Both the position numbers and the translations under genes were made by a program. From the IMG/VR virus record IMGVR_UViG_3300031857_000015, positions 62,001-126,000 of that record: a stretch of 64,000 nucleotides of DNA; one strand, 5' to 3'. The notes beneath the pieces are model-generated. The model searched no databases, was not told the DNA's origin, and was given only the letters and a program-made list of their open reading frames with translations. Source of the stretch: a virus. Shown one piece after another: positions 1-59,539 of the stretch (position 1 is its first letter; every line of letters begins with the position of its first letter).

Positions 1-2298
1 AATGACGTCGCCAAGCATTTCAAATGCGTTGCGCAGCGAGTCTTCCAGTTCCGGCATGTCGGCTTTACCGTAACGTTCGGCAAACCGGTCACCGTGCCAG
101 TAGAACATGAACAGGATGCGGCCCAACTTGTCGAGGCCCTTGGTTAGTTCGCCCATGTACCGGTCGACGAGCGAGTCGTCGCGCACGGCGCGCAGCATGG
201 CGCCCACCATCGCGGTGTCGAACACTTCGCGCTGGCCGCTTTGCGCGGCGTCGATCACGGAGCGCACGTCCCGCTGGTCGAGGAGCGTGTTCGGGTTGTA
301 AACGCTGCGGTCGGTTTGACTGGCACTCATACCCGGTACTTGCACCGCGGTATCAATGCCGAGCTGCGTTGGGATACTTGTACCCATGATACTCTCACCG
401 CCCATCACGGGGCCCGGATCGGTCGGAGCGGAGGGTGCGCCGTTGATCATCATCGGGCCGCCGTACGGATCAGCATACTTAACGCGGCACTCAAACTTGC
501 GCTTGGCGGCCGCTTGTTTCAGGATCTCGCGAGCAGCTTGCTCGCGCAGACCGTGGTGCTCCACCAGCGTAACGAGCGCCTTGATGGGGCTCAGGTTAGC
601 CTCTTTGTTAATCGTTACCGACGAGCCGTTGTGATAAACAGTCAGAGCAGCGGTCTTTTGCATGAGCGCCAACTGGGCGTCAACAAGGTTGCCGGGCATC
701 AGGGCCGGCGGATCACTCTCACCACAACCACATGCGCCCTGATCTTCCGCGATCTCGTCATCATCTTCGCCTTTGCTCACCTTGAGCAGCTTGAAACCTT
801 CCGGCACAAAGATGTCGCCCATGCTCGCGCGCAGGCTGGCACCTTTCTTACCGTTGAGGTGAATACGGACACCGTCGCGCCACTTGTCGTAGTTCAGCGG
901 GTCGGTATAGCAGCTGCCGCAAATGCTGCCCTTGGGCGGATACTTCGAGTGATCCTCAAGGTGCACTTCATAAACAGTGCTGCCGTTGCTGTCGCCGTAT
1001 TCTTTGATCACGCGGAACGGCGCTGTTGTGTCGCCGCGCTTGCTGAGCGCAATGTAGCGGGCGTCTTTACTCGGGACGCTGTTGGCTTCCGGCAGGCCGT
1101 TAAACCACGTATCAAACTCTTCGCCCTCGATCCGGGCCAGCGCAAAGACTTGGTCGGCGCGTGTATTGAGCCAGTTGCGCGCACCGTCAACGCGCACGAC
1201 CGTGATGAAGTTTTCACGCTTAGCGGCGCCTTGCGGATGTACAGCCACGTAGCAGCGCTCAATGTTGCCCGGCTTGACCAAAATTTCATACAAACCGCTT
1301 TCGGTCGGATTGAACAGCTTCTTTTCGACCTGAATGTGATACGGGATCGAGACGTTGTCGCGGTCACGCTCGTCTTGAATCAGCACGCCGTCGCGCAGCA
1401 GCTTTTCTTGATCGTCTTCGCTGTAACCAACGGGCGCCTTGGTCTGCACCGTGACGTCGTATGTGATAATTGTCAGGCCCTTAGCGGCGGCCGGCTCTTT
1501 GGGAGCCTCAGACAGCACACTGGCAATCTTTGTGTTTGCGGCAACTTCGCGCGCAGAGGCTTCAGCAATAGCCTGCTTGACGATATCTAAACCGTGAAAC
1601 TCGTCGACGGCGGCGGCTAGTTGCGGCGCGTGTTTGCACGTGTTAATAAGCGTGCCAATCACTTCGCGCCCGGCCTGCTTCAAAAACGTCTGCAGGTCTA
1701 GCGCTTCGCCCATCTCCTTAAACGCCTGCGCTGTGTTTAACGTAGCGCTCTTGGCGAGAGCCGGCATCGCAGCCGTCATCATCTCTTTGAGTGTGGGCTG
1801 CGCAGAGCCAAACTTAGCCGGGCTGCGCGAAAGCTGCGTAAAGTCGGGCTGACGTTGGCCCATGCCCGACAGGTTGCGCTGTACGCCGCTACCCAGAATG
1901 TTGGGCTTGCGGTTGATCAGGTAGTTAATCCAGTTTTCCTTAAGCGGTACGAACATGTCCTGATTTTTGATATACAGGAGTTCGTGGCCTTTGAGGTCGC
2001 CGTTGAGGAAGAACACCGGCGCATACAGCCAGTTAGAGCCGACCTTGAACGCAAAAACACCAACCGCCTTGGTGTTTTCCCGGTTGCGGTCGAGCAGCTG
2101 GAAACCAATTTCGTGGTCGAGTAGCTTGGGCGCTGAATCGCGCAGGTAGGCGTGAGCCAGATTGCTGAACGACTGCTCGAAGGAGGTGTCGTCGCCTTTA
2201 CCGCCTAAATCGGCGTACTTGGTCTGGGTGCGGTCATACGACTGCATCACCTTCAGCCAATGCTTAACAGACGACTCTTTCGCTTTTTTGTTATACAC
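1..2298 (-). CDS. Large unrecognised protein, 3' end outside window
   Basis: A reading frame stays open from a GTG at 2298 to the left window edge, giving at least 766 codons with no stop. GTG is chosen because a GGAGG lies 6 nt upstream; no ATG fits. The N-terminal part, up to about residue 150, is globular and rich in aromatic residues (SNWLYAPVFF, ELLYIKNQDMF). The middle is Ala-rich and helical. Cys pairs CGSC and CGCG occur in the second half. I do not recognise a family. The gene directly follows the β' C-terminal gene and may share its transcript. The long plus-strand frame at 241-1590 is its antisense shadow. A virion or transcription-associated role is possible, but nothing in the sequence proves it. 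Confidence 0.85.
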   Translation of the reverse strand, partial: MYNKKAKESSVKHWLKVMQSYDRTQTKYADLGGKGDDTSFEQSFSNLAHAYLRDSAPKLLDHEIGFQLLDRNRENTKAVGVFAFKVGSNWLYAPVFFLNGDLKGHELLYIKNQDMFVPLKENWINYLINRKPNILGSGVQRNLSGMGQRQPDFTQLSRSPAKFGSAQPTLKEMMTAAMPALAKSATLNTAQAFKEMGEALDLQTFLKQAGREVIGTLINTCKHAPQLAAAVDEFHGLDIVKQAIAEASAREVAANTKIASVLSEAPKEPAAAKGLTIITYDVTVQTKAPVGYSEDDQEKLLRDGVLIQDERDRDNVSIPYHIQVEKKLFNPTESGLYEILVKPGNIERCYVAVHPQGAAKRENFITVVRVDGARNWLNTRADQVFALARIEGEEFDTWFNGLPEANSVPSKDARYIALSKRGDTTAPFRVIKEYGDSNGSTVYEVHLEDHSKYPPKGSICGSCYTDPLNYDKWRDGVRIHLNGKKGASLRASMGDIFVPEGFKLLKVSKGEDDDEIAEDQGACGCGESDPPALMPGNLVDAQLALMQKTAALTVYHNGSSVTINKEANLSPIKALVTLVEHHGLREQAAREILKQAAAKRKFECRVKYADPYGGPMMINGAPSAPTDPGPVMGGESIMGTSIPTQLGIDTAVQVPGMSASQTDRSVYNPNTLLDQRDVRSVIDAAQSGQREVFDTAMVGAMLRAVRDDSLVDRYMGELTKGLDKLGRILFMFYWHGDRFAERYGKADMPELEDSLRNAFEMLGDVI

Positions 2299-43477: not shown

Positions 43478-43705
43478 TTAGACAGTCTCGAACTCGGCGT
43501 CGATCACCGTGTAGCTGTCGAACTCGTCGTTCAGGATCGCTGCTTCCGCCGGGATGCACTCGCAGACGCCCAGTTCAAGGCCGCAGTGCAGGCAGTGCTC
43601 GATGTCGACGTCCGCTGGGGCGATTGCCACGGCGAACACGAACAGCATGTCCCGGTAGTCGTCCACATTGACCTTCACCGCCGGGTTGTTGCGAAGCTGA
43701 GCCAT
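43478..43705 (-). CDS. Small acidic Cys-rich protein
   Basis: 75 aa from ATG 43705 (AGGAGG 8 nt upstream). EHCLHCGLELGVCEC gives five cysteines in 13 residues, a likely zinc knuckle; the C-terminus is acidic. Codons are strongly GC-ended, like the 37925-38638 gene. A long structured leader precedes it. Function unknown. Confidence 0.72.
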   Translation of the reverse strand: MAQLRNNPAVKVNVDDYRDMLFVFAVAIAPADVDIEHCLHCGLELGVCECIPAEAAILNDEFDSYTVIDAEFETV

Positions 43706-43886
43706 TATCTCGTCCTCCTTGAAGAGAAAATAAAACAACCGCCGTCTCGTGGCGGCACAACGCTAATGGTCTCTCGCCATTAGACGGCCCCACCTATCAC
43801 CGGGCAGGGGGTACGGCGAGGAAGTGCTATAGCTTCATGCGTAAGGCCAGTGCAATACACACTGCCGCGGCAAGAGATATAGGTCC
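43706..43886 (-). other. Structured 5' leader of the small Cys-rich gene
   Basis: A 180-nt untranslated stretch between two-box element copy 6 and the gene. It holds hairpin CTAATGG-CGAGAGAC-CATTAG nested in GCCGTC...GACGGC next to the ribosome site. Much longer than the other leaders (about 60-95 nt) behind these elements, so regulation at RNA level is possible. Confidence 0.45.
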
Positions 43887-43922
43887 TCAATAGATATGCC
43901 GTGTTTTTGGCAGATATTTAGC
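43887..43922 (-). promoter_or_regulatory. 36-bp two-box element, copy 6
   Basis: Minus strand: GCTAAATA, 12 nt, then ACGGCATATCTATTGA, 182 nt before the 43478-43705 start. Confidence 0.75.
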
Positions 43923-43937
43923 TAGGCCCGAATAGCT

Positions 43938-43976
43938 AAAAAAAAGCCGGCAGGGAAGCGCATCCCCACCGGCTTT
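43938..43976 (-). terminator. Intrinsic terminator behind the structured RNA
   Basis: Minus strand: AGCCGG...CCGGCT followed by eight T and AGCTATT. It lies about 60 nt downstream of the large non-coding RNA candidate. Confidence 0.85.
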
Positions 43977-44035
43977 TACGGAGTTAACGAGATCCGCGCT
44001 CGTGCCGAAGCGACCAATCGGTCGCCAAAAGAATC

Positions 44036-44385
44036 GTTAGCACAAGAAACGCTCGTGAGGACAGGTATCACTACCCGCCTACGCCCTGCAGCCGTTTGTT
44101 AGGTCACGGACAGTCTCGCGTTGTACGGACGCAAAACTATGTTATTTAAAACTAGTCCGGCAGGTCTTTCACCTGCACCACCCGCTCCCCTAGCCATAAT
44201 GTAGTGTAGTCGAGTGGAGTCACTTGGAATAGCCAACGAGGCCCGGGCGGGGCATGCCCGCTATTCCGCCATCTACCCTAACGGTTCCTGCAAAACATTT
44301 CACGAAAGCTGCTCGCCCAGCCCTCTGCATGCACCTAGAGATAGGTTCATAACACATGCTTCTCACGAGCGCTTCTTGTGCCAAC
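44036..44385 (-). ncRNA. Large structured non-coding RNA candidate
   Basis: There is no coding frame between 43977 and 44410. A closing helix of 20 bp joins 44362-44381 to 44040-44059 (one non-identical position, G-U in RNA), and the arms extend by about four further pairs. Inside are GGAATAGC/GCTATTCC (44226-44233 with 44260-44267) enclosing GC-rich hairpins, GCAGGT-GAAAG-ACCTGC (44160-44176), and ACCTA-TCTC-TAGGT. It is followed by a terminator. It does not show RNase P, tmRNA, 6S or group I intron signatures. An unidentified structured RNA of about 350 nt. Confidence 0.65.
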
Positions 44386-44410
44386 GTACGGATTCTAGCG
44401 GCCGTGTTGG

Positions 44411-44698
44411 CTACGTCAACGTGTCAATATAGTGCTGTGTAGAGCACACATAACGCGTGACGATATCTTCGGCTTCGCTCCCGGGGCAGCGCTGGTCTAA
44501 CTCTTGGACCAGCGCGCCCATCGACCTGCGGATGTTTCCCAGAGCGCGGCGGAGCTGCTTTACTTCAACCTCCGCGTCTGTTTTATATCTCGTCCCGCTT
44601 TTCGTGTTCACTGTCGGAGCCAACGCTGCCTTCTCCTTGTGTACTACTTCGGTCCACCACTGGTTGTTCCACTTCGTCGCCGTCCTCGTCGCTGGCAT
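44411..44698 (-). CDS. Small helical hypothetical protein (start uncertain)
   Basis: Up to 95 aa. The C-terminal 55 residues form a clean helical segment (AEVEVKQLRRALGNIRRS) ending CSTQHYIDTLT. The ATG at 44698 would overlap the preceding gene by 116 nt; a TTG after ACAAGGAG is an alternative start. Function unknown. Confidence 0.55.
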   Translation of the reverse strand: MPATRTATKWNNQWWTEVVHKEKAALAPTVNTKSGTRYKTDAEVEVKQLRRALGNIRRSMGALVQELDQRCPGSEAEDIVTRYVCSTQHYIDTLT

Positions 44699-46419: not shown

Positions 46420-46757
46420 AAGACTAGCTGCAGCTCTTCTTGGAACTCCCCCACGTCGGCAGCACGCCACGAGATTCCCCGCAGCGGTATCCGAAGGCAA
46501 GGAGTACCCGGTTAGACAACGGCGCGCTCAGGTATGCTAGCTGGCGCTGGATATAGGACTTTGGGCTCGGGCATACCAATCCACCCTAGTTTCCCGGAGT
46601 TCTTGGCCGGCAAGTGACGGCTGTTACTCCTTCGTCCCCGTTGTTGTTCGAGACCCGGCTGTTAATTCAGCAATCTTACCCGTTGAAAGATAAGACGCGG
46701 ACGCAATGCCGCGGTGTTAATTCACTTCACTACCCGATGAAGGATAGTTCCGGGCTA
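46420..46757 (-). ncRNA. Non-coding region downstream of tmRNA with two repeated hairpins
   Basis: 338 nt without a convincing frame, between the tmRNA 3' end and a terminator. Two similar units occur: 46711-46748 and 46656-46694. Each has a hairpin (CTATCC...GGGTAG; CTTATC...GGGTAAG) with a TTCAnC loop, then a GAATTAACA segment and CCG. It may be a separate small RNA processed from the tmRNA transcript. No known family recognised. Confidence 0.5.
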
Positions 46758-47102
46758 TGGAGGCGGCGGGAGTCGAACCCGCGTCCAGAGATATCTCCAG
46801 AAAGAACGTCTACGTGTGTAGGCAGTTGTTGTTTACACTCCTGCCAAAGTTAGCCGATTATCGGCGTCAGGTGGGCTACCACCATCTTGCCCTTTCTCGC
46901 CGGGCCAGATCAGCCGATTATCGGCGTCAACCTGATTGGGCAATAAGGCTCAGGTCGCCTCACCCACTGGCCTATTAACTAGGCAGCGAGGGCCGGAGCA
47001 AAAGCGCCAGCTAGAAACGTAATCGGCTTTTAACGTGGCCAACCGATCAACCACGACACGCAGTCCTAACCTTCCTTATCCTGTCGAAACCAGTACGCCC
47101 CC
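46758..47102 (-). ncRNA. ssrA: Transfer-messenger RNA (tmRNA), one-piece
   Basis: 345 nt. The 5' end GGGGGCG pairs with 3' CGCCTCC (7 bp, one G-U), and ACTGGTTTCGACAGG is the conserved 5' tmRNA segment. GGACGCGGGTTCGACTCCC is the 3' T-arm with discriminator A; CCA is not encoded. A short frame (stop 46979-46981) encodes a tag reading KPITFLAGAFAPALAA, ending in the typical ALAA. An in-frame TAA directly precedes AAG, so the resume codon is AAG or later. Two copies of GCCGATAATCGGC probably form pseudoknots. It would rescue stalled ribosomes and tag proteins for ClpXP-type proteolysis. Confidence 0.96.
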
Positions 47103-59095: not shown

Positions 59096-59141
59096 AAAAA
59101 AAGACCCGCCGAGTGAGCATCGTTGAGAGGCCCGGCGGGTT
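59096..59141 (-). terminator. Intrinsic terminator
   Basis: Minus strand hairpin ACCCGCCG...CGGCGGGT followed by seven T; ends the 59165-59539 gene. Confidence 0.85.
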
Positions 59142-59164: not shown

Positions 59165-59539
59165 TCAGGCAGTCGGCGGTGTCGGCTGTACGGACGGGGG
59201 AATAGCCGGGGCCGGAGGCGGTGTGATTGTCACAGTACCGTCAGCGTTGTACGTGAACTGCCCAACCATAGCTGCGCCTTCTTGAATCGCTTCGGGCCGA
59301 ACTTCAGCGATTAAGGCGCCGAGCTTTGCGTGCAACTGAAACACTTCAACCGCGTCTGTACCAAGCGCGGCCGCGATTTGCGAGGGGGACGCCTGCGGGT
59401 TACGCCAAAACTGCTTGGCGCCCTGATTAAACGCCGTCACCATGCTTTGAAACGTGGTGCGCGCTTGCTGCTTGATCTGGTTCGCTTGGCGTTGAGCCGG
59501 CGTGAGTTCGTTGACGACTGGGGTATCGAGAATGCTCAT
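59165..59539 (-). CDS. Conserved phage virion-type protein
   Basis: 124 aa. QQARTTFQSMVTAFNQGAKQ then FWRNPQASPSQIAAALGTDA and VEVFQLHAKLG is a block I recognise as conserved in many environmental phages. Helical in the first two thirds, with a C-terminal Pro/Thr-rich tail. Function not known. Confidence 0.82.
   Translation of the reverse strand: MSILDTPVVNELTPAQRQANQIKQQARTTFQSMVTAFNQGAKQFWRNPQASPSQIAAALGTDAVEVFQLHAKLGALIAEVRPEAIQEGAAMVGQFTYNADGTVTITPPPAPAIPPSVQPTPPTA

Follow-up and report, generated by a model that had tools for sequence, protein, structure and literature searches.

A candidate stand-alone gene for a large structured RNA of a new class in ~200-kb phages

The window analyzed here, a 64,000-nucleotide stretch covering part of a 198-kb virus record, encodes a 350-nt structured RNA on its minus strand (44385→44036). 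Comparison of homologues shows that its multi-helix core, 24-bp terminal helix, pseudoknot, and T-loop-like hairpin have mostly been kept by compensatory change. We consider it probable that this non-coding RNA has an independent gene in a clade of ~200-kb phages, that its type is new at the level of class, and that its folded core serves as a scaffold or decoy in trans. An earlier note on this DNA, which gave no strand, had described a structured RNA without a family assignment, and that reading is upheld by covariation, by the lack of a conserved reading frame, and by the lack of a matching Rfam family.

The genes around the RNA lie mostly on the minus strand, where they run in the order tRNA genes, tmRNA (47102-46755), small genes, a 95-aa gene, the RNA, a terminator, and a gene at 43738-43478. 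The tmRNA and tRNAs are 2.4-6 kb upstream of the RNA, and likewise in relatives; the order Lys-Leu-Val-Glu-Leu-tmRNA is largely kept across the phage clade. The tmRNA is a separate gene (46755-47102) whose tag peptide, as called by ARAGORN, varies among relatives (an odd 25-aa tag in some, GAYAPALAA or GASAPALAA in others). The phage encodes a multisubunit-type RNA polymerase, and by this protein its nearest named relatives are Salmonella phage Arash and Vibrio phages D69, D181, and D148 (23-26% identity). Elsewhere in the window, a match to the abiF RNA family (59104-59139, minus strand; 44.6 bits, gathering score 37) lies downstream of a 124-aa gene (59165-59539) for which PHROGs gave no match.

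The minus-strand segment folds at -161.6 kcal/mol (z -7.55), and none of 100 shuffles folded as well. An RNA on the plus strand was rejected, as the fold is weaker there (z -5.0) and G-U pairs turn into mismatches. Among inverted repeats in the window that span 240-650 nt, none is longer than the closing helix P1, with two G-U pairs among its 24 (25 in the scan; the next is 21). The earlier note saw a 20-bp helix with one G-U at the ends of a 342-nt segment; this helix lies at 44040-44381 and forms part of these 24 bp. Within P1 lies a core with a pseudoknot and roughly twelve other helices (Table 1); the 8-bp helix of that note corresponds to P6 (44260-44267/44226-44233), and its 6-bp GAAAG hairpin to P8, listed here with a 5-bp stem.

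Table 1. Features of the structured RNA and its transcription unit, with positions in the window and the evidence for each
Feature	Position	Strand	Evidence or remark
95-aa gene, upstream of RNA	44411..44698	-	3' end overlaps -35 element; accompanies RNA in genomes compared
Promoter -35 element TTGACG	44414..44419	-	sigma-70-like, 16-nt spacer; TTGAC(G/A/C) in all 8 close homologues
Promoter -10 element TAGAAT	44392..44397	-	TAGAAT/TACAAT/TAAACT in close homologues; expected start ~44385
350-nt structured RNA domain	44036..44385	-	fold z-score, covariation, homologues
P1 5' strand, 24 bp, partner 44036-44059	44362..44385	-	double changes in 8/24 pairs (8 sequences), 12/24 including distant homologue
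P1 3' strand	44036..44059	-	same double changes as 5' strand
P2/P2b hairpin, conserved AUGAAC..AUCUCU..GGUGCA	44327..44359	-	1 double-change pair; sequence kept to distant homologue
P3 hairpin	44304..44325	-	double changes in 4/8 pairs
P4 5' strand, partner 44081-44091	44288..44298	-	near-invariant in 8; two double-change pairs vs distant homologue
P4 3' strand	44081..44091	-	as 5' strand
P5 5' strand GUUAGG, partner 44098-44103	44277..44282	-	kept to distant homologue (GUUAAGGC/GCCUAAU); no double change
P5 3' strand CCUAAC	44098..44103	-	as 5' strand
P6 arm, GC-rich apical part, palindrome GCCCGGGC	44226..44267	-	double changes in 3/8 pairs; apical pairing ambiguous
Pseudoknot 5' strand AGUG, partner 44203-44206, crosses P7	44221..44224	-	U-A to C-G in two sequences
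Pseudoknot 3' strand CACU	44203..44206	-	as 5' strand
P7 5' strand CCACUCG, partner 44178-44184	44211..44217	-	one pair A-U / G-C / C-G; others one-sided changes
P7 3' strand CGGGUGG	44178..44184	-	as 5' strand
P8 hairpin GCAGG-UGAAAGN-CCUGC, 5-bp stem, 7-nt T-loop-like loop	44160..44176	-	kept to distant homologue
P9/P9b arm, loop CCGUACA	44107..44159	-	loop kept in close homologues; double changes in 7/15 pairs (8 close), 11/15 with distant
P10 hairpin GGCGGGUA-GUGA-UACCUGUC	44060..44079	-	kept to distant homologue (GGCGGGUA-GUAG-UACCUGC)
Tail hairpin H11, then UUCGGCAC	44009..44026	-	kept in all 8 and in core-less relative
Tail hairpin H12, loop CUCGUUAA	43979..43996	-	in-step stem changes CGGA/UCCG, GGCGA/UCGCC, GUGGG/CCCAC
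Intrinsic terminator with U-run	43935..43977	-	sequence, downstream of RNA

Close homologues were gathered from IMG/VR contigs with a 20-nt probe from the P1 helix and two core probes; a third probe added none. Seven more distinct close homologues were found, 82-95% identical to the RNA of the window, five of them on contigs 194-205 kb long; contigs 3300012000_000039 and 3300014050_000074, with identical match score and coordinates, were counted once. Related genomes were gathered via the phage helicase gene, and one of them (G016, 203 kb) holds a distant homologue, matched by model R1 at 33.8 bits and by blastn: a 409-nt RNA (L173:1864-2272) with its own 27-bp closing helix (z -8.5). The other helicase-bearing relatives gave no match to model R1 or R2, and neither Salmonella phage Arash nor Vibrio phage D69 matched R2. 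Short blastn pieces in G024, G029, and G030 were discarded as coding-like DNA or as devoid of any closing helix. A scan of the syntenic stretch of G001, G017, G026, G028, G031, and G032 for long closing helices found no 350-nt analogue; folding z-scores alone are not decisive in such stretches, where many windows, coding ones included, score low. The core pattern had no match among prokaryote genomes, and in named phages and plasmids the only similarity was a chance match of 31 bases. All homologues found fall in one clade of ~200-kb phages, with a single copy of the RNA per genome.

Covariation was counted over a hand-listed structure of 112 pairs, pseudoknot included. Among the eight close sequences, 99.1% of cells pair and 25 of the 112 pairs carry double changes; with G016 added, 96.1% of 1007 cells are standard pairs and 35 pairs carry double changes, counts that overstate independence, since eight of the nine sequences are close kin and a few events account for many of the double changes. 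None of 500 shuffles attained the observed value in paired fraction, in double-change pairs, or in covariation score, and pairing fell from 96-99% to 32-44% when partners were shifted by one to three columns. RNAalifold, run on the eight sequences, gave 132 pairs, 26 with double changes. By this comparison P1, P3, P6, P9, and P9b are strongly backed by covariation, P7 and the pseudoknot moderately so, and P4 by two double-change pairs, both relative to G016. P5, P8, and P10 are near-invariant, and their support is therefore conservation rather than covariation. In two sequences the AGUG/CACU pseudoknot has changed to AGCG/CGCU; in G016 it reads GAGC/GCUC by inspection, the automatic alignment setting it off register there.

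No reading frame is conserved, since the stretches free of stop codons, 37-77 codons at their longest, change frame and strand from one homologue to the next, and loops of the homologous RNAs carry 1-nt indels, all in keeping with the earlier observation that the segment has no coding frame. Absent covariation and a conserved coding frame had been named in advance as grounds for abandoning a structured RNA; both were looked for, and neither turned up. Compensatory changes beyond controls, together with the lack of a conserved frame, are what is generally expected of a structured non-coding RNA.

The RNA is preceded by a sigma-70-like site (TTGACG-16-TAGAAT) whose end, at 44392, lies six bases from it. 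Close homologues keep both hexamers (TTGACG, TTGACA, or TTGACC at -35) with a variable spacer, and in G016 a promoter is not obvious. A single site of this kind is no more than chance would give in the region overall, and the argument for this promoter is one of position and conservation. The terminator noted earlier after the RNA was confirmed, downstream on the minus strand at 43977-43942. With a promoter before it and two small hairpins and a terminator after it, the RNA looks like an independent gene, and the arrangement strongly suggests transcription from its own sigma-70-like promoter to an end at ~43942, which would give a transcript of about 450 nt; a promoter of this type makes the host polymerase the probable enzyme.

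The order of promoter, structured RNA, terminator, and gene is also that of an attenuation leader, and the 350-nt domain could be a cis-acting, riboswitch-like element controlling termination at 43942 and hence the gene at 43478-43738. We think this quite unlikely. The gene that follows the terminator occurs in the close group alone, being absent in G016 and G017, a relative described below, so the conserved association expected of a leader is not seen; the terminator is followed by a separate promoter-like motif (GCTAAATA...GGCATAT) that is repeated before other genes; and the conserved fold shows no antiterminator pairing of the core with the terminator. The upstream gene is linked to the RNA in the carriers compared, whereas G016 and G017 differ from the others in the gene downstream, and this favors a stand-alone gene over a leader. 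The intergenic motif itself (GCTAAATA, about 12 nt, then CGG(G/T)CATATYTA(A/G)TGA) recurs on the minus strand at 43923, 43148, 42772, 40522, 38757, and 37837, often directly after a terminator ending in TTTTTTTAGCTAT, and is found in relatives as well; it is probably a phage-specific promoter.

On the upstream side, the 95-aa gene adjoins the RNA in those close homologues whose loci cover the place and is near it in G016; it is also present in G017 and was not found in the syntenic stretches of the RNA-less G001, G021, G026, G028, G031, and G032. Its product is modeled as helical, with no significant PDB fold match. The linkage of gene and RNA, which starts 25 nt past the stop codon, would fit a 3' untranslated or stability element processed from the mRNA of the 95-aa gene operon and serving only to protect its 3' end, as would the strong hairpin that is all G017 retains at the RNA site. 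However, a conserved promoter sits at the end of the 95-aa gene, ahead of the RNA, about 390 nt separate gene and RNA in the distant homologue, and a hairpin that protects an end needs neither sequence-invariant loops nor a pseudoknot. We therefore regard an end-protecting role as decidedly improbable and retain an independent RNA gene as the preferred reading.

G017 (IMGVR_UViG_3300033978_000480) carries, at L228:4564-4610, a 47-nt hairpin (GUUAGCACAAGCGGCG...UGCUUGUGCUAAC, -30 kcal/mol) where the others have the 350-nt RNA. The upstream 95-aa gene, the tail, and the terminator are as in carriers, and the tail is closely similar over 104 nt. G017 thus represents a natural core-less allele, arisen through loss or gain, so the core is dispensable and accessory. 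Because the stem of this hairpin matches and its flanks are closely similar to those around the full domain, the core might be what is left of a mobile RNA element that entered a hairpin loop, or else a ribozyme. This is very improbable in our view: carriers share the same site in a vertical pattern, there is no similarity to group I or II introns or known ribozymes, no protein is encoded inside the RNA, which is present once per genome, and the state of G017 is explained equally well by loss or gain of the core.

None of the families of Rfam 15 reached its gathering score in the RNA region, and none fell below E = 1 in a relaxed search; the sole match, to group-II-D1D4-4 (13.5 bits, E = 2, gathering 49), is at chance level. 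ARAGORN found no tRNA or tmRNA within the RNA. With their covariance models unmatched, tmRNA, tRNA, RNase P, 6S RNA, and group I and II introns were rejected as memberships, which confirms against all Rfam 15 families the earlier remark that signatures of RNase P, 6S, tmRNA, and group I introns are missing. Of the retron msr-msd features, the closing repeat is present, and a comparison of ten neighboring proteins with PHROGs found no reverse transcriptase among those ten.

GOLLD and ROOL had also been offered for comparison, and this proved apt as context (phage RNAs near tRNA or tmRNA genes) and not as membership, for want of an Rfam match. GOLLD is likewise phage-encoded, large, highly structured, and near tRNA genes, but differs in sequence and fold and is often more than 800 nt long (PMC12286853), with a conserved 3' region, against a 350-nt domain in a ~450-nt transcript here; its model had no gathering-score match in the window and none at E ≤ 10 in 43740-44600. 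ROOL, encoded by phages and prophages, often near tRNA islands, and intricate with pseudoknots, likewise differs in sequence and fold, and its Rfam covariance model was not matched. Both are described as lying near phage tRNA genes, as this RNA does. Large phage RNAs also provide a precedent for RNA-only oligomers (PMC12286853). Oligomers like those of GOLLD, ROOL, and OLE could form here via the P6 palindrome GCCCGGGC, an 8-nt sequence invariant in the eight close homologues, or via the loops of P2 and P9b, which are highly conserved. The distant homologue keeps neither the palindrome nor the P6 apex, and we rate such assembly as unlikely. Measured against known families, the RNA is new at the level of class, not of mechanism, and precedents exist for large structured RNAs that phages encode near tRNA genes.

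The same genomic area of the related phage G021 holds a non-coding RNA of 456 nt (L193:16614-17069) with a 25-bp closing helix (z -8.1). It has no detectable sequence homology to the RNA studied here and lacks P8; it is either a replacement or a very diverged relative. The same RNA (~456 nt) also occurs at L231:6729-7182, and G021 is without the RNA studied here. A long non-coding stretch with several hairpins follows a copy of the promoter-like motif at L231:2240-2620 (G019/G021) and is possibly a further structured RNA; the nearby scan window 1801-2160 gave z -14. In G028, an element of about 160 nt closed by AAAGGTGCGCTGGA/TCCAGCGCACCTTT lies between tRNA-like sequences and a terminator (L227:935-1095).

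P8 is shaped like the T-arm of a tRNA (5-bp stem, 7-nt loop UGAAAGN), and we take its loop to fit the T-loop pattern. In contrast to tRNA and tmRNA, the RNA has no acceptor stem, CCA end, D-arm, tag frame, or tRNA model match. A search with GTGCAGGTGAAAGNCCTGC returned the RNA family itself and eight unrelated phage contigs, in which the hairpin seems to be the last one of a short unannotated RNA (the outline is weak for L233, L235, and L239). Several of these short RNAs have an acceptor-like closing helix with CCA or ACC after it, and neither Rfam nor ARAGORN had a name for them. Those in L236, L238, L240, L241, L242, and probably L235 carry the P8 hairpin letter for letter (GUGCAGGUGAAAGNCCUGC) but are otherwise unrelated to the structured RNA, at 71-128 nt with an acceptor-like closing helix of 7 bp or longer; the P8 hairpin is all that the two have in common. 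RNAs with GUGCAGGUGAAAGNCCUGC occur in diverse phages and one Ruminococcus genome, often with CCA (minus strand at L242:2764-2883, L238:4124-4247, and L241:856-983; also near L235 3495, L240 2346, and L236 1610, and at L244:6812).

We think that the structured RNA functions in trans as a folded binding scaffold. In the mechanism we propose, the host polymerase would transcribe it from its own sigma-70-like promoter. Long perfect duplexes are substrates of RNase III, and the long terminal helix may insulate the fold and protect or mature the RNA. The folded core would then act in trans as a binding scaffold or decoy, whose most likely target may be a component of the translation or tRNA-handling machinery. 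That step, suggested by the T-arm-like P8 (a 17-nt hairpin) and by the location beside the conserved tRNA-tmRNA cluster, we hold as possible rather than probable. A fuller version, in which an RNA made by the host polymerase is a large clamped scaffold whose T-arm-like elbow captures a host factor of translation or tRNA handling, and belongs to a modular set sharing the hairpin, is speculative, and we would not expect it to hold in full.

With a defined gene, a protein gene linked to it, a fold pinned down by a distant homologue, and a natural core-less allele, this RNA lends itself to experimental tests of its role. That one T-arm-like hairpin recurs in otherwise unrelated tRNA-like RNAs of phages hints that an RNA part has been reused. 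It is rare to find large non-coding RNAs whose folds are both intricate and conserved, and function has been a lasting question for each class known so far; GOLLD and ROOL provide the structural precedent that such RNAs can form unexpected assemblies.
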